Assembly (NCBI GenBank): GCA_007126035.1
Contig: SLCC01000031.1
Span: 1 to 38,422, forward strand
DNA length: 38,422 nt
Source: Gemmatimonadota bacterium
Lineage (GTDB): Bacteria > Gemmatimonadota > Gemmatimonadetes > Longimicrobiales > RSA9
Direction of reading: 5' to 3'
In this document: positions 2,295 to 25,368 of the stretch, piece by piece
Numbering within the stretch: the stretch's first letter is position 1
How the letters are laid out: each line of letters begins with the position of its first letter
Translations under genes and position numbers: made by a program
Notes under the pieces: generated by a model
What the model was told of the DNA's origin: nothing
The model's input: only the letters and a program-made list of their open reading frames with translations
Databases searched by the model: none

Positions 2295-4217
2295 TCAGGC
2301 GATGGTGACGATGGGCGCGGAGCTGTCGATCTCGTCGCCCGGCCGGACGTGGATGGCCGTCACCGTGCCCGCCTGCGGAGATCTGATGTCGTGGCTAGCC
2401 TTCATGGCCTCGACCACGGCCAGCACACTGCCCTGTTCCACGCGGTCACCCGTGGACACCCGCACGTCCACCACCTCGACGGAGCCGGCGAAAGTGGAGA
2501 AGACGTCGGTGCCGCCGCCGCCCACCGGAGCCGCCGCTGCGCCCGCCGCCGGAGCGGCAGCCGGAGCCGCTGCCGGGGCCTGTGATGCCGCCGGTGCCTG
2601 CGCCGCGACACCGACGCCGCCGTCGCCAGACGCGCCGCCCAAGGGCTCGAGGGTCACTGTAAAGGTCCGCAGCTTGCCGCCCTCCTCCACCACGCAGCGC
2701 GTGGTGATCGGGCCCGCCGGCGCTGCTGGAGCAGCGGGTTCCGGCTGAGGCGCGGGCGCGGGAGCGGGCGCCTTCTTCTCCTCCTCCTTCGTCTTCAACG
2801 GGATGTCGATCTTGGACCGTCCCGTCAGGAGCCGGATGCCTTCGTTGATGTCCAGGTTCTTGCCCGGCACCATCGAGGCCAGGACCAGAAATATGTTCTC
2901 GTCCGTCACCTCCAGGCCCCGCTCCTCCAGCGCCTGTCTGGCCGCCGGGATGTTGTTGGGCGCCGCCTCCAGCGGATCGCCCTCGAAAACGGGGAGGTCG
3001 AGCTGCTCCGAGGCTATCTCCACCACCTTCGGGTCCGGCGGGAGCGGCGTCTTGCCGAAATAGCCGAGCACGGCCTTGCCGTAACCCGCATCTATCTTCT
3101 CCCACCGGCCGTACAGGACGTTGTTGAACGCCTGTAGCCAGTACTGCTGGCTCCCGGGCGTCACGCTCGTCCAGGCGCCCGCCGACTCCACCACCACCGG
3201 GAACTCCGCCAGCACCTTGCTGTACCGGTCCAGGATCCCCGCCTTCTTCATCATGTGGACGTTGGGACCGATGGCGCCGCCGGGCATGGGGAAGCCCAGG
3301 ACCCGCGGGTCAGGTGTGGTTGTGGTGGGGTCGAACGCGTAGTCGGACAGGAGCTCCTCGAGCATTGACTCGATCTCCGGCAGCCCGTCCACGTCCATGT
3401 CGAGCTGGTAGCCGGTACCCTTCAGAGAGTGGACCAGCGACCGGGCGTCGGGCTGGGAGGTGCCGCTGGCAAGGGGCCGGACCGCCAGGTCCACACCGTC
3501 AGCACCGCCATGGATCGCAGCCAGGTAACAGGCCACGCCCGTGGAGGCGGTGTCATGGGTGTGCATCCACAGCGGCAGCTCGGGCGGCATGATCTTCTTC
3601 AGGCCCACGGCGGTCTGGTAGATGGTGACCGGGTCCGTGGTGCCGCTGGCGTCCTTCAGGCAGATGCTGTCGACGTGCATCCCGCTGTCCAGGATCTGCC
3701 GCCCGATGTCGATGTAGAACTCCGGCGTGTGGACCTCGTCCGACTCGAACGGCAGTCCCATGAGGGCGATGACCGCCTGGTGGTGCATGCCCGCGTCCAC
3801 GATGGGCTTGCCCGTCTTCACCAGGTTCCGGACGTCGTTCATGTAGTCGAAGTTCCGATCCCAGGTGGTGCCGGCGGCCGCCATCAGCCGACCCTGGAGG
3901 GCGAGCGCCTCCGGCGACTGCGTCGTCAACGTCACGCCCGACACCGACCGCGTCAGGATCTGAAGGTCCACGTCCGGACCCACCGCCGCACGCATCCGGC
4001 GCATGTTCTCGAATGGGTTCTGGCCCAGGTAGAAGAGGGGCGCCTGGAACAGCGCACCACCGCCGAACTCGAAATGACGGATCCCGAGCTTCGCCGACGC
4101 CTCCATGGCGGGGAGGAAATCCTCGAGACGGACCTTGCCGCCGAACGTACTCTGGAGCCCGTCCCGGAAGGGCGTGAACATCACCCGGATTCGCCTGGCA
4201 CTCTCTGTGAAGATCAT
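2295..4217 (-). CDS. oadA: Biotin-dependent carboxyltransferase / decarboxylase alpha subunit (OadA/PycB-like)
   Basis: This subunit moves a carboxyl group from a 2-oxoacid to its own biotin, feeding the beta subunit. It has 640 residues. An HMGL-like TIM-barrel carboxyltransferase domain covers about residues 5-290, with metal ligands Asp19 and the HTHDT motif (His219, His221) and the carbamylatable lysine in ICLKDASG (Lys188). A PycA/OadA conserved domain follows to about 480. An Ala/Pro-rich linker (about 500-565) leads to a C-terminal biotinyl domain with EAMK (Lys606). The start at 4217 overlaps the upstream small gene as ATGA; the frame stays open further upstream but is not homologous there. 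The metal motif reads FRDGLQS, not the RDAHQS usual in OadA and pyruvate carboxylase, so the substrate may differ from oxaloacetate. That last point is inference. Confidence 0.85.
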   Translation of the reverse strand: MIFTESARRIRVMFTPFRDGLQSTFGGKVRLEDFLPAMEASAKLGIRHFEFGGGALFQAPLFYLGQNPFENMRRMRAAVGPDVDLQILTRSVSGVTLTTQSPEALALQGRLMAAAGTTWDRNFDYMNDVRNLVKTGKPIVDAGMHHQAVIALMGLPFESDEVHTPEFYIDIGRQILDSGMHVDSICLKDASGTTDPVTIYQTAVGLKKIMPPELPLWMHTHDTASTGVACYLAAIHGGADGVDLAVRPLASGTSQPDARSLVHSLKGTGYQLDMDVDGLPEIESMLEELLSDYAFDPTTTTPDPRVLGFPMPGGAIGPNVHMMKKAGILDRYSKVLAEFPVVVESAGAWTSVTPGSQQYWLQAFNNVLYGRWEKIDAGYGKAVLGYFGKTPLPPDPKVVEIASEQLDLPVFEGDPLEAAPNNIPAARQALEERGLEVTDENIFLVLASMVPGKNLDINEGIRLLTGRSKIDIPLKTKEEEKKAPAPAPAPQPEPAAPAAPAGPITTRCVVEEGGKLRTFTVTLEPLGGASGDGGVGVAAQAPAASQAPAAAPAAAPAAGAAAAPVGGGGTDVFSTFAGSVEVVDVRVSTGDRVEQGSVLAVVEAMKASHDIRSPQAGTVTAIHVRPGDEIDSSAPIVTIA

Positions 4218-4513
4218 CGCTTCTCCTCGATCCTGGTTGCCGTCGTCCCGGGATAGGCCCGCCCCGCCGCCGCCGCGATGGCGGCGAACAGGGCAGCGTC
4301 GGTACCTTCGTCCGCTGGGAAGATCGTGGTGAGCAGGCGTATGATGCCTGCCAGCAACGACAGCAGCAGCAGAACCGCGACGAAGGCAGAAGCGCTTATC
4401 ACCAGGAGGTTGGGTTCGGTCATGGCTTCGGCACTGACGTTTAGTATTCCTAGATTGATCGGGCACGCCAGCGCGAGCACCGCGAGCGCGCGCCTGCGAG
4501 CACTCCCAGACAC
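4214..4513 (-). CDS. oadG: OadG-like small membrane subunit of the decarboxylase
   Basis: This is a small protein with one strong membrane segment (about residues 34-62, TEPNLLVISASAFVAVLLLL) and a short soluble tail, the layout of gamma subunits that anchor the alpha subunit to the beta subunit. Its stop overlaps the alpha-subunit start by four bases (ATGA), so the two are translationally coupled. The start is uncertain. The GTG at 4513 gives 99 residues with an additional N-terminal hydrophobic stretch that looks like a signal sequence. The ATG at 4423 gives 69 residues, closer to a plain gamma subunit. Neither has a strong ribosome site. The assignment rests on size, topology and position, because gamma subunits are poorly conserved. 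Confidence 0.65.
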   Translation of the reverse strand: MSGSARRRALAVLALACPINLGILNVSAEAMTEPNLLVISASAFVAVLLLLSLLAGIIRLLTTIFPADEGTDAALFAAIAAAAGRAYPGTTATRIEEKR

Positions 4514-4564
4514 AAGGCAATAAGATTACCAGCCTGAGGCCGGAGACGAAATAGGAGAATCACC

Positions 4565-9350: not shown

Positions 9351-10820
9351 ATGAGGAAGAGGACAGCATCCCGGCGCTGGCTCGTCCGCCGTTTCTTGAC
9401 GGCCGTCGCTCTGCCCCTGCTCATCGCCGGGCTCGGGGCCACCCAGACCCATGCCCAGGCGACGGCTCAGGAAGCCGACGAACGGGTGCCCGACATCATC
9501 ATCTTCACCCACATAACCTGCCCCTACTGCGCCGACGCCAAGGTCTATCTCGAAGACCTCCAGCAACGGAAGCCGGGCCTCAAGGTGTGGGTGCGGGAGC
9601 TGACCGAGGACAGGGCCGCGTCATCGGACCTGCGGGACATCGGCCGGAACGTCGGCGTCCCGAACCCGGGATTGCCGGCCTGGGTCGTGGGTGGCCAGGT
9701 CTTCCTGGTGGGCTTTGGAGGACCGGCCACCACCGGTCGCCAGATCGAGGACCTCCTGGCAGACATGGGGCTACCGCCTCAGGCACAGCGGGTGGGCGGG
9801 GACGAGGCAGCGCCAGCGCCGGCACCACCAGCCCGGGACGCGGAGACGAGGTCGCCCGAGGAGCCTGGGGCCGACCAACCTGCCCGGGACGACGACCGGG
9901 AGGAGGAGTCGGCGGCGCCGGGGCTGCAGATCAGGACCGCCACGCCCACCACCATCTCCCTGCCCTTCATCGGTGAGGTGGATGCGGCGGGCATGTCGCT
10001 GCCCGCGCTGACGGGTCTCATCGCCTTCGTCGACGGGTTCAATCCCTGCTCGCTCTGGGTGCTGACCTTCCTGCTGGGGATCGTGCTCTACTCGGGCTCC
10101 AGGCGGAAGGTGCTGCTGGTGGGCGGGCTGTTCCTCCTGGTCACCGCGTCGGCCTATGGCCTGTTCATAGTCGGCATGTTCGGGACCCTGCGCTACCTGG
10201 CCTACCTGTCCTGGATCACCTTCGCGGTGGCGGGGATGGCCCTCATCTTCGCACTGGTCAACATCAAGGACTATTTCTGGTTCCAGAAGGGCGTGTCGTT
10301 TACCATCAGCGACAAGCACAAGCCCAAGCTCTTCGAACGGGCGCGGAACCTCATGCACCCGGGCCGCTCGCTGCCCGCGCTGCTGATCGGGACCGTGGTA
10401 CTGGCGCTGGGGATCACGCTGGTGGAGCTGCCCTGCACCGCCGGGTTCCCCATGGTGTGGACAGGAATCATCGCCACCCACGGGATCCCACTATCGTACT
10501 TCGGGGCGCTGCTGGCCCTCTATATCTCGGTCTACCTGCTCATCGAGCTGGTGATCTTCGGCTCGGTGGTGGTCACCATGAAGCGGAGTACTTTCGAAGA
10601 AAAGCATGGCCGCATCCTCAAGCTCTTCGGCGGGATGATCATGCTGGCTCTCGGGCTGACTCTGATCTTCGCGCCCGACACCATGCACAGCCTGGGCGGG
10701 ACCCTGGTGGTGTTCGGCAGCGCACTGGCTGCTTCGGTGGCCATCCTCTGGCTCCACCGGCGGGTGCTGCCCCGGTTCGGCATCGTCATCGGCTCGGAGG
10801 ACCTCCAGGTGGCGGACTGA
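9351..10820 (+). CDS. Secreted glutaredoxin-like domain fused to DsbD/CcdA-like membrane domain
   Basis: This looks like a thiol-disulfide relay that carries reducing power across the inner membrane. It has 489 residues: a signal peptide (1-36, ends THAQA), a glutaredoxin-fold domain (48-142) with redox motif CPYC (Cys57, Cys60) and a cis-Pro segment VGVPNPGLPAW, an acidic Ala/Pro linker (150-195), then about six to eight membrane helices. The membrane part holds the DsbD/CcdA-type cysteines in FNPCSLW (Cys233) and ELPCTAGFP (Cys362). The ATG at 9351 was chosen because AGGATAGGA lies just upstream; two in-frame TTG codons precede it. By family analogy electrons flow from cytoplasmic thioredoxin through the membrane cysteines to the exported CPYC. 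The partner is unknown. Confidence 0.82.
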   Translation: MRKRTASRRWLVRRFLTAVALPLLIAGLGATQTHAQATAQEADERVPDIIIFTHITCPYCADAKVYLEDLQQRKPGLKVWVRELTEDRAASSDLRDIGRNVGVPNPGLPAWVVGGQVFLVGFGGPATTGRQIEDLLADMGLPPQAQRVGGDEAAPAPAPPARDAETRSPEEPGADQPARDDDREEESAAPGLQIRTATPTTISLPFIGEVDAAGMSLPALTGLIAFVDGFNPCSLWVLTFLLGIVLYSGSRRKVLLVGGLFLLVTASAYGLFIVGMFGTLRYLAYLSWITFAVAGMALIFALVNIKDYFWFQKGVSFTISDKHKPKLFERARNLMHPGRSLPALLIGTVVLALGITLVELPCTAGFPMVWTGIIATHGIPLSYFGALLALYISVYLLIELVIFGSVVVTMKRSTFEEKHGRILKLFGGMIMLALGLTLIFAPDTMHSLGGTLVVFGSALAASVAILWLHRRVLPRFGIVIGSEDLQVAD

Positions 10821-20567: not shown

Positions 20568-22001
20568 GTGTCTGCCATTGCGCTGGATCACCCGCTCATC
20601 ATTCAGGGCGGCATGGGCGTGGGCGTCTCGAACTGGGCGCTGGCCCGGGCGGTATCCCTCCGGGGCCAGTTGGGCGTGGTCTCCGGCACGGGCATAGACT
20701 CCGTGTTCGTGCGACGCCTCCAGGATGGCGACGTGGCCGGCCACGTCCGTCGCGCCCTCGAGTCCTTCCCGTTCCCCGAGCTGGTGACCGACGTACTGGA
20801 CCGGTACCTCAAGGCTGGCGGTCGTGCCGAGGGCGAGCCGTACGCCAGTCTCCCGCTGTACCGTCAGGCGGTGACCAGGGCCCGGGACCGGGTAACCATG
20901 CTTGCCTCCTACGCGGAGGTCTGGCTGGCGAAGGAGGGCCACGACGGCCCCGTGGGCCTGAACCTGCTCACCAAGGTCCAGATGCCCAACCTGACCACTC
21001 TCTACGGCGCCATGCTGGCCGGCGTGGACTACGTGCTCATGGGTGCGGGGATCCCCCGTGAGATCCCTGGCGCGCTCGATCGTCTGGCCCGGCTCGACCT
21101 CGCCGCCATCAAGCTGGACGTGGAGGATGCCGCCCGCGGCTCGTCCCACCAGTTGGTCTTCGACCCCGCCGACCACCCGCTTCCGGAAGCCCCCCTGAAG
21201 CGGCCGTTCTTCCTGCCAATCATCTCGTCCCATTCCCTGGCCACGGTACTGGCCAAGAAGGCGACGGGCCGGGTTGACGGCTTTATCGTGGAGGCTCCGG
21301 TGGCCGGTGGCCACAACGCTCCTCCCCGTGGCGAGCTCCAGCTCAATGGCCGGGGCGAGCCTGTCTACGGCGAGCGGGACACGGTAGACCTGGAGAAGCT
21401 CAAGGATCTTGGTCTCCCCTTCTGGCTTGCCGGCGGCGCCGGCAGCCCGGAGAAGTTACGGGAGGCCCGGGCCGCCGGTGCCGCCGGGATCCAGGTGGGC
21501 ACCCTGTTCGCCTACTGCGACGAGTCCGGCTTCAGCGACGAAGTGAAGGAGCCGGTGCGTCGCCAGGCCCTGAACGGCGGGATCGACGTGGTCACCGACG
21601 CCGTGGCGTCGCCCACCGGCTTCCCCTTCAAGGTGGTCCAGGCCCCCGGCACCCTGTCCGACCGGATCCTCTACGAGCAGCGTGACCGGGTCTGCGACCT
21701 GGGCTACCTCCGCAACCCCTACCAGAGGCCCGACGGTCGCCTCGACTACCGCTGCTCCGCCGAGCCCGTGGAGACGTACGTGAAGAAGGGCGGCGCCCGT
21801 CAGGAGACCGAGGGCCGCAAGTGCCTCTGCAACGCCCTGTTCGCCGGTATCGGCCAGGGCCAGCTCCGCAAGGACGGCCGCGTCGAGCAGCCCCTCATCA
21901 CCAGCGGCGACGAGATCAATGCCATCGGACAGCTGGTGGGCGAGAACGGCACCGGCTACACTGCCGCCGACGTCATCGATTACCTGCTCGGCGACGCCTG
22001 A
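20568..22001 (+). CDS. Nitronate monooxygenase / FMN oxidoreductase (NMO, 2-nitropropane dioxygenase family)
   Basis: This 477-residue TIM-barrel flavoprotein belongs to the larger NMO class. Visible landmarks are the N-terminal PLIIQGGMGVGVSNW, AGVDYVLMGAGIP, EAPVAGGHNAPP (about 243-254, the region of the catalytic His in NMOs) and the FMN-phosphate loop LAGGAGSPEKLREARAAG followed by GIQVGTLF. The C-terminal extension has a conserved-looking RKCLCNALF segment. Such enzymes oxidise alkyl nitronates or act as NAD(P)H-dependent reductases; the natural substrate is unknown. The GTG at 20568 begins directly at the conserved N-terminus. It is divergent from the AcoR-type kinase across a 144-bp region. 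Confidence 0.85.
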   Translation: MSAIALDHPLIIQGGMGVGVSNWALARAVSLRGQLGVVSGTGIDSVFVRRLQDGDVAGHVRRALESFPFPELVTDVLDRYLKAGGRAEGEPYASLPLYRQAVTRARDRVTMLASYAEVWLAKEGHDGPVGLNLLTKVQMPNLTTLYGAMLAGVDYVLMGAGIPREIPGALDRLARLDLAAIKLDVEDAARGSSHQLVFDPADHPLPEAPLKRPFFLPIISSHSLATVLAKKATGRVDGFIVEAPVAGGHNAPPRGELQLNGRGEPVYGERDTVDLEKLKDLGLPFWLAGGAGSPEKLREARAAGAAGIQVGTLFAYCDESGFSDEVKEPVRRQALNGGIDVVTDAVASPTGFPFKVVQAPGTLSDRILYEQRDRVCDLGYLRNPYQRPDGRLDYRCSAEPVETYVKKGGARQETEGRKCLCNALFAGIGQGQLRKDGRVEQPLITSGDEINAIGQLVGENGTGYTAADVIDYLLGDA

Positions 22002-22162: not shown

Positions 22163-23806
22163 ATGTTCGAGCTTCCGATCATAGTCGACCTGGGCCTGAT
22201 AGTGGTTGTGGGCGCCGCGTGCCTGGTGGCGGGCCAGCGGCTGCGGACCCCGTCCATTGTGGCGTACATCGTGGCCGGGCTGATCCTGGGTCCGGCCACG
22301 GGTCTGGTCACTGCCGGGGAGGCGGTGGAGCTCATCGCCGAGGTGGGGATCGCGCTCCTCCTCTTCCTGGTGGGTCTGGAGCTCAGCCTGGACCGGATCC
22401 GGGACGTGGGGAAGGTGGCCGTGGTGGCGGGTCTGGGGCAGGTGGTATTCACCGCCGCCGGGGGCCTGCTGCTGGCCGGCCTGCTGGGCTTTGGCTGGCT
22501 GGAATCCCTGTTCATCGCCGTGGCCCTGACCTTCAGCAGCACCGTGGTCGTGGTCAAGCTGTTGGACCAGAAGGGCGAGTTGAACGCCCTCTACGGCCGT
22601 ATCGCCGTGGGCATCTTCCTGGTCCAGGACCTGGTGGTCATCGTGATCCTGACGTTCCTGGCCGGGTTGGGGGAGGCGGAGCAGGCCAACCCCACCCAGA
22701 TGGCCGGTGGCCTGGTCGTCGCCTTTCTAGGGATGGGCGCCCTGGTGGCGACCGCCCTCCTCTCCTCCCGCTACCTCCTCCCCAGGGTGTTCGGCTGGGT
22801 GGCCGGGGCCCCGGAGCCGCTGTTCATCTGGAGCCTCTGCTGGTGCTTCGTGTTCGTCATGGGCGCCGAGGTGATGAACCTGTCCCTGGAGATCGGCGCC
22901 TTCGTCGCCGGCATCAGCCTGGCCCAGCTCCCCTACAACCACGAGTTCCAGCGGCGGGTCCACCCGCTGATGAACTTCTTCATTGCCGTCTTCTTCGTCT
23001 CCCTGGGCATCCAGATGCAGGTGGGCGCGGCGCTGGACCAGCTGTTCTCCGCCAGCGCGCTGTCCCTCTTCGTCCTCATCGGGAACCCCCTGATCTTCAT
23101 GCTCATCATCACCCGCCTGGGCTACGGTGAGCGACCCGCCTTCCTGACCAGCGTGACGGTGGCCCAGATCAGCGAGTTCTCCTTCATCTTCGCCGGCGTG
23201 GGGCTGGCCGCAGGCCTCATCGCCCCGGAGATCCTGTCCCTGATCACCGTGGTGGGCCTCATCACCATCGGTGTCTCGTCGTACATGATCCTCTACAACC
23301 ACCAGCTCTACGAGTGGACGCGGCGGGTCGGCCTGCTACGGCCCTTCCGGCCCAGGTCCGCCTCACCCGCCGACGCCCCTGCGCCCGACGAGGAGGAGCC
23401 GCCCAGCGACCACGTGATAGTGGTGGGCATGAACCACATGGGCCGCCGCATCGTCGAGGGCCTCACCTCTGCCGGGGAGCGGGTCCTGGCGGTGGACACC
23501 GACCCCCGCAAGCTCGAGGGGCTGCCCTGTGACACGCTCCTGGGCAACGTGGAGTACCCGGCGGTACTCGAGGAGGCGGGGCTCCCGGGCGCCAAGCTGC
23601 TGGTCTCCGCCCTCCAGATCGAGGGCACCAACAACCTCCTGGCCTTCCGGGCCCGGGACGCCGGCGTACCCGTCAGCGTCCACGCCTTCGACGGCTCGGT
23701 CGAGGGCAGCCTCCGGCGGCTGGGCGCGGACCACCTGATCCTGTCGAAGAACCTGGGCATCAGGCGGATCGCCGAGCAGCTCCGGGAAATGGGGGTGCTG
23801 GGATGA
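22163..23806 (+). CDS. CPA2 cation:proton antiporter with TrkA-N domain (first of pair, KefB-like)
   Basis: This 547-residue inner-membrane antiporter exchanges K+ or Na+ for H+. About 12 helices fill residues 1-385, with the family motifs FLVGLELSLDRI (about 68-79), FSSTVVVVKLL and FLVQDLVVI (about 151-159, containing the conserved Asp). After a Pro/Ala linker, residues 413-545 form a TrkA-N (RCK) domain. Its nucleotide motif reads VVGMNHMGRRI, so the first GxG is degenerate. GAGG is very close to the ATG (22163). The gene overlaps the next antiporter by four bases. The 161-bp gap before it (22002-22162) shows nothing recognisable. Confidence 0.88.
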   Translation: MFELPIIVDLGLIVVVGAACLVAGQRLRTPSIVAYIVAGLILGPATGLVTAGEAVELIAEVGIALLLFLVGLELSLDRIRDVGKVAVVAGLGQVVFTAAGGLLLAGLLGFGWLESLFIAVALTFSSTVVVVKLLDQKGELNALYGRIAVGIFLVQDLVVIVILTFLAGLGEAEQANPTQMAGGLVVAFLGMGALVATALLSSRYLLPRVFGWVAGAPEPLFIWSLCWCFVFVMGAEVMNLSLEIGAFVAGISLAQLPYNHEFQRRVHPLMNFFIAVFFVSLGIQMQVGAALDQLFSASALSLFVLIGNPLIFMLIITRLGYGERPAFLTSVTVAQISEFSFIFAGVGLAAGLIAPEILSLITVVGLITIGVSSYMILYNHQLYEWTRRVGLLRPFRPRSASPADAPAPDEEEPPSDHVIVVGMNHMGRRIVEGLTSAGERVLAVDTDPRKLEGLPCDTLLGNVEYPAVLEEAGLPGAKLLVSALQIEGTNNLLAFRARDAGVPVSVHAFDGSVEGSLRRLGADHLILSKNLGIRRIAEQLREMGVLG

Positions 23807-25368
23807 CCGGCTTCGCCCTGCTCCTGGCCGGCGCGGCGGTGGGCCTGGGAATCGCCCACTTCATGAGGCTCCCGTCCATCCCACTACTCCTGGTGGTGGG
23901 CGCGCTCCTGGGCTTCACCGGCGCCGTCCCGCCCGAGCTGCTCCAGGACGCCATCGTCCTGGGCGTCACGTTCCTGGTCTTCTTCGCCGGCCTCGAGTTG
24001 AACCCGGAGCGCGTGGGCGAGCAGCGCCGCGCGGTCCTCTGGGTCGGCCTCGTCCAGTTCTTCGTCCTGGGCGTCACCGGCCTGGCCGTGGCGCTGGCGC
24101 TGGGCCACGACCTGACCGCCGCCCTCTACCTGGCCCTGGCCATGACCGCCAGCTCCACCCTGGTGGTTGTGCGGCTCCTCCAGTCACGCCAGCAGCTGTT
24201 CGAGCCCTTCGGTCGGCTGGTCCTGGGCGTCCTGCTGCTGCAGGACCTGGCAATCATCCTCCTCATCCCCGTGGTCACCCGGCTCCCCGAGGGGAGCTGG
24301 GCGGTCGTGGAAGGGCTGCTGGCCGCCGGAGGCCTGGCCGGCGCGGCCCTCCTCTTCGCCCGCCTCGGCGGGCCCCGCCTGGCCCTCAGCTTCCGCCACG
24401 ACGAGGAGACCCTCTTGCTCGTGGTCCTGGGCGTCCTGTTCGCCTTCATCGCCGCCGCATCGTTCCTCGGGCTGCCCCTGATCGCCGGCGCGTTCCTGGC
24501 CGGCGTCGCACTCTCACCATTCCCCACCGGACTCGTGGTGCGGGGGCCCCTCCTCTCCCTCTCCGACTTCTTCCTCGCCATCTTCTTCGTCGCCCTGGGC
24601 GGGCTCGTGGGCCGGCCCGACCTCATCGCTCTGGGCCAGAGCCTGGTCTTCGTGGTGCTGCTCATCGTCGTCACCCCAATCGTGGTAACGGCGGTGGCGG
24701 AGCGTATGGGTCTGTCCACCAGGCCGGCAGTCGAGTCGGGGCTCCTCCTGGCCCAGGCCAGCGAGTTCTCCCTGGTGGTCGGACTGTGGGGGCTCATGGC
24801 CGGCCAGATATCGGTCCGGGTCTTCACCACCGTGGCCCTGGTCACCGTCATCACCATGCTCCTCACGCCCTTCATCGGCACCGACCGCGTCACCTGGCGA
24901 CTGATGCGGCTCCACCCGCTGCGCCGCGAGCCCGAGATCGTCGACCCCCCGTCCGACCACATCCTGCTCCTGGGCTGCGGGGACAGCGGCATGCCACTCC
25001 TCGAGACACTGATAGCCTCCGGCCACCAGATGGTGGTGGTGGACGACGACGCCGCCATCATCGAGCGGCTCCAGGATGGCGACGTGCCCTGCGTCCGCGG
25101 CGACGGCTCCGATCGCGACGTGCTCGAGCGGGTCGGGGCCAGGAACGCCAGGCTCATCATCTCCACCATCCGCCGCGCCCACGACAACGCCGAGGTGCTC
25201 CGCTTCGCCGCCGGCGTGCCCACCGTGGTCAGGGTCTTCGATGGTGCCTCCGCCGATCTGATAAGCAGCCTGGGCGGCACCCCCGTCGTCTACGGCGATG
25301 CCGGCGCCGACGGGTTCCTCGACTGGTTCACCAGGTCCGGGGTCACCGCTGAGTCCCGGCAGGGATGA
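23803..25368 (+). CDS. CPA2 cation:proton antiporter with TrkA-N domain (second of pair)
   Basis: This 521-residue relative of the preceding gene is clearly diverged from it. It has about 12 helices with FFAGLELNPERVG (about 60-72), ASSTLVVVRLL and VLLLQDLAIIL (about 145-155), then a C-terminal TrkA-N domain (about 383-500) with an intact nucleotide motif LLLGCGDSG and acidic VVVDDD. The ATG overlaps the upstream stop as ATGA, so both proteins are made together, and a heteromeric antiporter or two ion specificities are possible. The ion carried is not evident from sequence. Confidence 0.88.
   Translation: MTGFALLLAGAAVGLGIAHFMRLPSIPLLLVVGALLGFTGAVPPELLQDAIVLGVTFLVFFAGLELNPERVGEQRRAVLWVGLVQFFVLGVTGLAVALALGHDLTAALYLALAMTASSTLVVVRLLQSRQQLFEPFGRLVLGVLLLQDLAIILLIPVVTRLPEGSWAVVEGLLAAGGLAGAALLFARLGGPRLALSFRHDEETLLLVVLGVLFAFIAAASFLGLPLIAGAFLAGVALSPFPTGLVVRGPLLSLSDFFLAIFFVALGGLVGRPDLIALGQSLVFVVLLIVVTPIVVTAVAERMGLSTRPAVESGLLLAQASEFSLVVGLWGLMAGQISVRVFTTVALVTVITMLLTPFIGTDRVTWRLMRLHPLRREPEIVDPPSDHILLLGCGDSGMPLLETLIASGHQMVVVDDDAAIIERLQDGDVPCVRGDGSDRDVLERVGARNARLIISTIRRAHDNAEVLRFAAGVPTVVRVFDGASADLISSLGGTPVVYGDAGADGFLDWFTRSGVTAESRQG

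Follow-up and report, generated by a model that had tools for sequence, protein, structure and literature searches.

Introduction

In the current understanding, membrane relays such as DsbD and CcdA receive their electrons from thioredoxin. The DsbD protein of Escherichia coli carries an immunoglobulin-like N-terminal domain and a C-terminal thioredoxin domain, and CcdA has no fused outer domain. The gene considered here lies in a 38,422-nucleotide stretch of DNA of a Gemmatimonadota bacterium (assembly GCA_007126035.1, contig SLCC01000031.1, positions 1 to 38,422), called the window throughout. Unlike E. coli DsbD, its product has a single N-terminal domain of thioredoxin/glutaredoxin (Trx/Grx) fold and no C-terminal one. 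A sequence-only reading had described it as an exported glutaredoxin fused to a DsbD/CcdA-like membrane relay. Our analysis makes it rather probable that the window protein works as a transmembrane thiol relay, a divergent one of DsbD/CcdA type with a fused outer Trx/Grx-fold partner, and that a lipoyl carrier acts as the donor in a subset of its relatives.

Several published systems involve lipoyl carriers. In Mycobacterium tuberculosis a chain of lipoamide reductase, lipoyl E2, AhpD and AhpC has been described (Bryk 2002, cited in PMC8945050). The lipoyl carrier LbpA possesses two strictly conserved cysteines, some archaeal LbpAs excepted (PMC6067878), and in the SirTM operon the oxidoreductase binds the GcvH-L carrier only once it is lipoylated (PMC4518038). 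Among the titles and abstract openings of a mostly open-access literature we recognised no publication that couples a lipoyl carrier with a DsbD/CcdA relay or gives the present family a name. The nearest published idea is a speculative link of the Act complex to a lipoyl carrier (PMC3543383), and the main text of a survey of prokaryotic lipoate assembly contains no words starting with thiol, disulfide or AhpD (PMC10332631).

Results

Layout of the window protein

The gene is a single open reading frame of 489 amino acids at 9351-10820 on the plus strand, starting with ATG at 9351 (Table 1). In the AlphaFold2 model built with 69 family rows (predicted local distance difference test score, pLDDT, 81.3; predicted template modelling score, pTM, 0.73), a signal-like helix is followed by a Trx/Grx-fold domain (residues 49-138), an unordered linker and a seven-segment membrane domain from residue 217, the chain terminating 13 residues past the last membrane helix. 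Reading frame and model thus bear out the earlier description of one protein with a signal peptide (judged by eye), a CPYC domain, a disordered linker and a membrane domain, and the structure prediction that had been proposed as a check returned both folds, the exported one and a seven-helix membrane domain. The N-terminal module does differ from that of E. coli DsbD, as had been noticed: an extracytoplasmic Trx/Grx-fold domain is joined to a two-cysteine membrane domain.

The whole protein contains four cysteines, at 57, 60, 233 and 362, and these, together with P109, are invariant, beyond what chance would give, across the 69 aligned relatives of alignment A4, whose rows were chosen by the motif D[GA]x[NDS]PC, so that C233 was selected for. 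The chain of the model breaks within two residues of both C233 and C362. In a larger set of 173 distinct relatives, drawn from 200 frames that all carry the same motif (the first membrane cysteine being the selection rule), an upstream in-frame CxxC is present in 161 and the second membrane cysteine in 172. One relative with DSFNPC (L178) was missed by the selection motif and stands outside this set and the trees.

The loops predicted to lie inside hold 3, 7, 3 and 1 lysine plus arginine residues, and the short ones predicted outside hold 1, 0 and 0. This positive-inside pattern places the Grx-like domain outside, and we therefore regard it as extracytoplasmic in predicted orientation. The large basic loop may offer a docking surface for a cytoplasmic donor.

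Table 1. Positions in the window of the relay gene and of the parts of its product.
Feature	Position	Strand	Basis
Exported Grx-like/DsbD-CcdA-like membrane protein gene (P0001)	9351..10820	+	Open frame; paralogue (89% identical) in the same genome, contig C35
Signal-like N-terminus (residues 1-35) with basic region and hydrophobic helix; THA may precede a cleavage site	9351..9455	+	Judged by eye from sequence; helix 5-28 in model
Trx/Grx-fold domain, residues 44-142	9480..9776	+	Model; fold match 43-140; PF00462 at 22.0 bits (sub-cut-off)
CPYC active-site motif, residues 57-60	9519..9530	+	Both cysteines invariant across the 69 rows of A4
Pro109, predicted position of the thioredoxin-fold cis-proline	9675..9677	+	Invariant in A4
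Low-confidence linker rich in Ala/Pro/Glu/Asp, residues 143-200	9777..9950	+	pLDDT 46-57 across 141-200
Membrane domain with seven long helical segments, residues 213-476	9987..10778	+	Model; hhalign to DsbD/CcdA domains
Cys233 within DGFNPC, adjoining helix break H217-229/H232-246	10047..10049	+	Invariant in A4; on first DsbD/CcdA Cys
Cys362 within VELPCTAG, adjoining helix break H341-363/H365-376	10434..10436	+	Invariant in A4; on second DsbD/CcdA Cys
Large basic loop, KDYFWFQKG-SFTI stretch, residues 306-340, predicted cytoplasmic	10266..10370	+	Positive-inside count

The exported redox domain

Residues 49-138 of the model follow the order beta-alpha-beta-alpha-beta-beta-alpha, with the CxxC starting helix 1 and the conserved proline at P109, as expected of a Trx/Grx fold. 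In the structure search, residues 43-140 matched solved thioredoxins and glutaredoxins with a best Z of about 10 (for example 9bxs_E: Z 10.1, root-mean-square deviation, r.m.s.d., 1.7, 81 aligned residues), and neither group stood out among the matches. The Pfam glutaredoxin model PF00462 scores 22.0 bits, just below its gathering cut-off of 22.9, and matches 32 of the 69 relatives at E<=0.01. Since the score lies under the cut-off, thioredoxin/glutaredoxin fold is the safer label; of the glutaredoxin domain claimed earlier the fold has held up and the specific name is less safe.

The membrane domain and its relation to DsbD and CcdA

As the structure search with the whole protein probed the redox domain only, the membrane domain was folded separately. 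No Pfam or NCBIfam model exceeded its cut-off on this domain, the pieces that appeared being at chance level (E 0.04 and 0.02). The relation to DsbD and CcdA emerged from the comparison of profiles by hhalign. The membrane family (A5, 73 rows) aligned with canonical DsbD/CcdA domains (A6, 27 rows) with a probability of 91.3 and an E of 9.6e-7 over 191 columns, both cysteines falling in register, NPC over MPC and ELPCTA over ATPCTA; an unrelated permease family (five rows) aligned as a control with A5 gave a probability of 0.1. The A6 alignment comprises 26 of 30 DsbD_TM loci and one CcdA-like gene of locus L032, with L233, L237, L245 and L248 left out as contig-end or partial matches. The two membrane cysteines that had been called DsbD-type, C233 and C362, are therefore placed as such by the profiles. 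We take the domain as a remote member of the DsbD/CcdA superfamily, itself neither a DsbD nor in the Pfam family: it shares with DsbD and CcdA the polytopic membrane domain, the two aligned cysteines and an outer partner of the thioredoxin superfamily, and differs from them in lacking a PF02683 match.

Spread of the family

A scan of GTDB genomes returned at least 590 candidate stretches, at least 559 of which encode a relative. The best 80 of these at least 559 loci were used for the neighbourhood survey; they bear labels such as Anaerolineae, Gammaproteobacteria, Trueperaceae, Nitriliruptoria, Rhodobacteraceae, Bipolaricaulota and Cyanobium, among others. Within the phylum, 11 of 395 genomes match at E<=1e-6, the window genome included. 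Class samples around three of the operon-bearing genomes described below gave matches at E<=1e-10 in 28 of 198, 108 of 239 and 102 of 234 genomes, E<=1e-25 being reached by 77 of the 108 and 29 of the 102 in the latter two; many of the weaker matches are frames of about 230 amino acids with no redox domain and may be CcdA proper. A protein search of 61 genomes found two with a match, the window genome being one; the other match, in G026 (E 7e-4, inside a 1193-amino-acid frame), looked spurious and was dropped. The phage search gave no match and five pattern matches on viral contigs included no relative. The plasmid search returned one record, Pseudanabaena galeata plasmid pPg_03 (L005, 47318-60064).

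The protein encoded on this plasmid, WP_281009911.1, combines the same two domains and is 32% identical over residues 212-445. It differs in an extra hydrophobic stretch before the membrane domain, seen by eye, and is named by its redox domain only, as a glutaredoxin family protein. Neither Pfam nor NCBIfam names a family of this architecture, and no role for it was found in the titles and abstract openings of the literature searched or in the accessible parts of PMC6067878, PMC10332631, PMC8945050, PMC3543383, PMC4518038 and PMC7873978. The family is widespread yet unnamed. With its at least 559 places the architecture is already common, which is one half of what had been named as refuting the earlier reading; the other half, a defined role, did not turn up in these sources.

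Several surroundings of family genes may be recorded, gene types being assigned by eye. Two CxxC motifs precede the membrane domain in L058, L070, L077, L202 and L203, possibly as tandem redox domains. A rhodanese-like sulfurtransferase gene lies directly 3' of the family gene in three gammaproteobacterial loci (L030, L075, L103), and NiFe-hydrogenase and HypB-type genes lie nearby in four related gammaproteobacterial ones (L046, L051, L054, L060). Arsenic-type genes (ArsR-like, permease, ACR3-like) occur near L026, L033 and L043, some of which also have ArsC-like and small thioredoxin genes. We regard the rhodanese, hydrogenase and arsenic surroundings as weak leads. The Pseudanabaena plasmid member adjoins genes annotated as DsrE, cysteine synthase A (cysK) and katG, a sulfur and peroxide neighbourhood.

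A lipoyl operon in twelve relatives

Clustering of the neighbours of the best 80 loci revealed a run of lipoyl genes after the family gene in L062, L068, L089 and L032 and partly in L077: a GcvH-like protein, a flavoprotein resembling CoA-disulfide reductase (CoADR), lipoyl synthase and lipoate ligase. At L077, which ends at a contig end, the run consists of the carrier and ligase only. A search among class kin added G639, G876, G968, G1025, G909, G1002 and G941, giving 12 operon genomes with the labels Mollicutes, Falkowbacteria and Nanoarchaeia and further members of the classes of the latter two. Operon genes were assigned by Pfam on part of the copies and by blastp to those for the remainder.

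The spacing from membrane gene to GcvH-like gene runs from -11 to +9 bases in 11 of the 12, and in L206 the two frames overlap at the end of the membrane gene. All 12 carriers exceed the cut-off of PF01597 (GCV_H), keep the lipoylation motif Ex2Kx10G intact, so that their lipoylation is predicted, and hold 0 or 1 cysteine each. A flavoprotein disulfide reductase adjoins in 10 of the 12, the exceptions L077 and L178 both being cut by contig ends, and 9 of these 10 reductases keep the CoADR-type cysteine. Lipoate ligase adjoins in 10, lipoyl synthase in six (L032, L202, L062, L068, L089, L207), and an AhpD-like CMD protein with CxxC in five (L203, L204, L205, L178, L207).

In L062, L068, L089 and L206 a separate Grx-like gene stands beside the membrane gene, whose product has exactly two cysteines, the membrane pair; these loci are a natural split form of the fused relay. 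In L032 a separate thioredoxin-type gene (PF00085, PF00578) and a CcdA-like gene, together at 1119-2283, lie directly upstream of the Grx-membrane gene, and there canonical-type and divergent relays are found side by side.

Clients of the carrier and position in the family tree

The operon copy is the sole GCV_H domain in all 12 operon genomes. GcvP (PF02347) was found in none of the 12, nor was a 2-oxoacid dehydrogenase E2. As controls, the GcvP and E2 searches were each positive in 10 of 14 control genomes, GcvP being found in the window genome as well.

In a tree of 167 membrane domains, which holds 11 of the 12 operon loci and omits nine rows (five duplicates of operon genomes that carry different locus ids, together with L214 and three distant ones, L018, L139 and L140), the operon label needs six changes, at least three of them forced by well-supported branches. 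With the label so scattered, the link to the lipoyl genes is either ancient or arose on more than one occasion. In an earlier tree a well-supported branch (97 rows, SH-aLRT 99) has the window gene and 8 of the 11 operon-linked rows on one side. The link does not hold throughout the family: across five samples, a GcvH-like neighbour was seen at 5 of 80, 1 of 29, 2 of 30, 7 of 30 and 0 of 10 loci, three genomes being counted twice and the flanks covering about 1.5 kb except in the 80-locus sample.

Other redox systems of the window genome

The window protein has relatives in its own genome. A second fused copy (contig C35, 7294-8877, L006) is 89% identical to it, and contig C148 encodes a solo exported Grx-like protein of 171 amino acids with CPYC (20898-21413, minus strand; L007:10899-11414), 54% identical to the window protein in the match. 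Two canonical DsbD_TM loci are present, and such genes occur in 25 of 25 kin-sample genomes, the window genome included. Since canonical DsbD is there, the window protein would be a parallel route, beside DsbD and not replacing it. These findings do not support, in the form given, the self-contained reducing system that had been suggested: the protein has no cytoplasmic redox domain, and its genome also holds the two DsbD_TM loci, the second fused copy and the solo Grx-like protein.

Discussion

As it has no cytoplasmic redox domain, the window protein needs a cytoplasmic donor. In the scheme that we favour, a cytoplasmic dithiol would reduce the C233/C362 membrane pair, the pair would in turn reduce the CPYC motif of the exported domain, and the latter would reduce extracytoplasmic disulfides or further forms of oxidised sulfur. 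The domains, the four invariant cysteines, the remote homology to DsbD/CcdA and the predicted orientation are results of the analysis; the electron direction, the disulfide exchanges and the substrates are inferred. In the window genome the donor may simply be thioredoxin; the window gene itself was also considered as lipoyl-fed, and this is unsupported; it has no lipoyl neighbours. If the scheme is right, there is a second route by which extracytoplasmic thiols are kept reduced, one that is widespread, invisible to Pfam and equipped with a built-in exported redox partner.

For the operon relatives, gene order and content suggest that electrons could pass from NAD(P)H to the flavoprotein, from there to the lipoyl carrier (in some genomes on to the AhpD-like protein), then to the membrane cysteines and finally to the exported Grx, a chain that is not directly extendable to the window gene. 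We consider evenly balanced the more specific proposal that small-genome microbes possess a transmembrane thiol relay fed by lipoic acid, which would be the only client of lipoate there, the window protein being of the same family, possibly with another donor. In 12 small genomes the operon would then represent a likely use of lipoate other than in 2-oxoacid dehydrogenases, in glycine cleavage or in the oxidation of sulfur, and a lipoyl-fed relay would explain why the ligase and, in half of them, lipoyl synthase are retained where no GcvP or E2 was found.

A number of results weigh against these proposals. For the homology, PF02683 (DsbD_TM) does not match the window protein at E<=1, its three stretches in the window genome fall in two loci that do not include the window gene, and DsbD_2 weakly matches 1 of the 69 relatives (E 0.0076). 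The structure of the membrane domain matches CcdA 5vkv with Z 7.4 (r.m.s.d. 4.8, 192 of 224 residues) and unrelated transporters tie with it at Z up to 9.0, while the Foldseek match to CcdA has E 3.1. The paralogue on contig C35 has CRYC instead of CPYC. For the lipoyl donor, the window gene stands alone, outside any lipoyl operon, the only GcvH of its genome shares a contig with GcvP, and none of the 10 loci of the phylum search has a GcvH-like neighbour within about 1.5 kb. Among the operons, no lipoate ligase lies beside L205 or L178, the latter reaching a contig end, and the L205 reductase is without the CoADR-type cysteine. The operon genomes are small (0.6-1.2 Mb) and partly fragmentary as assemblies, so absences may be gaps; single absences mean little, and the 0 of 12 for both GcvP and E2 is consistent.

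The published lipoyl systems resemble the operons in part. As in the M. tuberculosis chain, five of the 12 operons place a lipoyl carrier next to an AhpD-like CxxC protein, and four of these five also have a flavoprotein reductase (L178 ends first). Unlike in that chain, a GcvH-like carrier takes the place of E2 and a transmembrane relay with an exported Grx that of AhpC, and the reductase is closest to CoA-disulfide reductase, below the cut-off of its model. The SirTM operon likewise has a GcvH-L carrier that is independent of glycine cleavage, shows the motif Ex2Kx10G and is accompanied by an LplA and an oxidoreductase of its own; no membrane relay is described in the accessible part of that paper (PMC4518038), and no sirtuin or macrodomain gene was noticed in our operons, where none was searched for. 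LbpA, too, is a lipoyl carrier of GcvH-like type that works apart from glycine cleavage and has lipoylation genes of its own (PMC6067878). It differs in that the synthase of our operons is of LipA type (two operons, by NCBIfam) and not LipS1/S2, and the carrier lacks the cysteine pair, for which reasons we rejected the operon carrier as an sHdr LbpA; no hdr genes were noticed in the operons, where none were searched for by model.

It is possible, though we find it doubtful, that the family is an ordinary thioredoxin-fed DsbD/CcdA variant throughout, the lipoyl genes of the 12 genomes belonging to an AhpD-type system for peroxides or thiols in the cytoplasm and being no more than co-expressed with the relay. 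The GcvH-like gene is indeed missing from the fetched stretch of the window gene and of most relatives, and a lipoamide protein is known to reduce AhpD, which serves peroxidases (PMC8945050). Against mere co-expression, in all 12 cases the GcvH-like gene comes after the membrane gene with virtually no spacing, on branches scattered over the family tree, and the searches for GcvP and E2 disclosed no further lipoyl client in the operon genomes.

The main rival reading of the operon, which we think unlikely, reverses the direction of the electrons: the exported Grx-like domain would oxidise extracellular thiols or reduced sulfur and pass electrons through the membrane pair to the lipoyl carrier, the flavoprotein and NAD+. 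Many isolate names among the GTDB relatives, which we take to refer to soda-lake sediments, were counted in favour of such an inward flow, as were the rhodanese-, DsrE- and cysteine-synthase-type genes near some family members. LbpA provides a precedent for a GcvH-like carrier in sHdr sulfur oxidation, where dihydrolipoamide could feed NAD+ (PMC6067878), and for the Pelobacter Act complex a cysteine-lined channel that feeds the lipoyl carrier LarG has been put forward as a speculation (PMC3543383). However, those DsbD and CcdA proteins that have been characterised pass electrons outward (PMC8945050), the hallmark cysteine pair of LbpA is absent from our carriers and, though no model search was made for them, no sHdr genes were noticed in the operons.

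That the membrane domain is by now transporter-like and past electron relay, its cysteines being structural, is very improbable: its structure matches are various transporters and PF11139 weakly touches 2 of the 69 members, but the protein has four cysteines only, all invariant and the membrane pair in DsbD/CcdA register, and the upstream CxxC is kept across the 173-relative set to the extent given above. An outward relay with a fused exported partner remains the reading that we prefer.

Genomic surroundings

The window gene is flanked on one side by genes of a Na/Pi cotransporter, PhoU and an amino-acid permease, and on the other by those of a D-Ala-D-Ala carboxypeptidase and an ABC transporter. 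The second fused copy on contig C35 sits after an M1-peptidase-like gene (PF01433 just under the cut-off). On contig C148, further 3' on the strand of the solo Grx-like gene, lie genes of a 636-amino-acid protein with a signal-like start, a cysteine-synthase-type pyridoxal-phosphate enzyme (PF00291) and a hexapeptide protein (PF00132). Elsewhere in the window, positions 22163-25368 hold two tandem Na/H-exchanger genes with a TrkA_N domain in each, and positions 2298-4520 on the minus strand encode a protein resembling carboxylases whose C-terminal domain is of the biotin/lipoyl kind (PF02436, PF00364).

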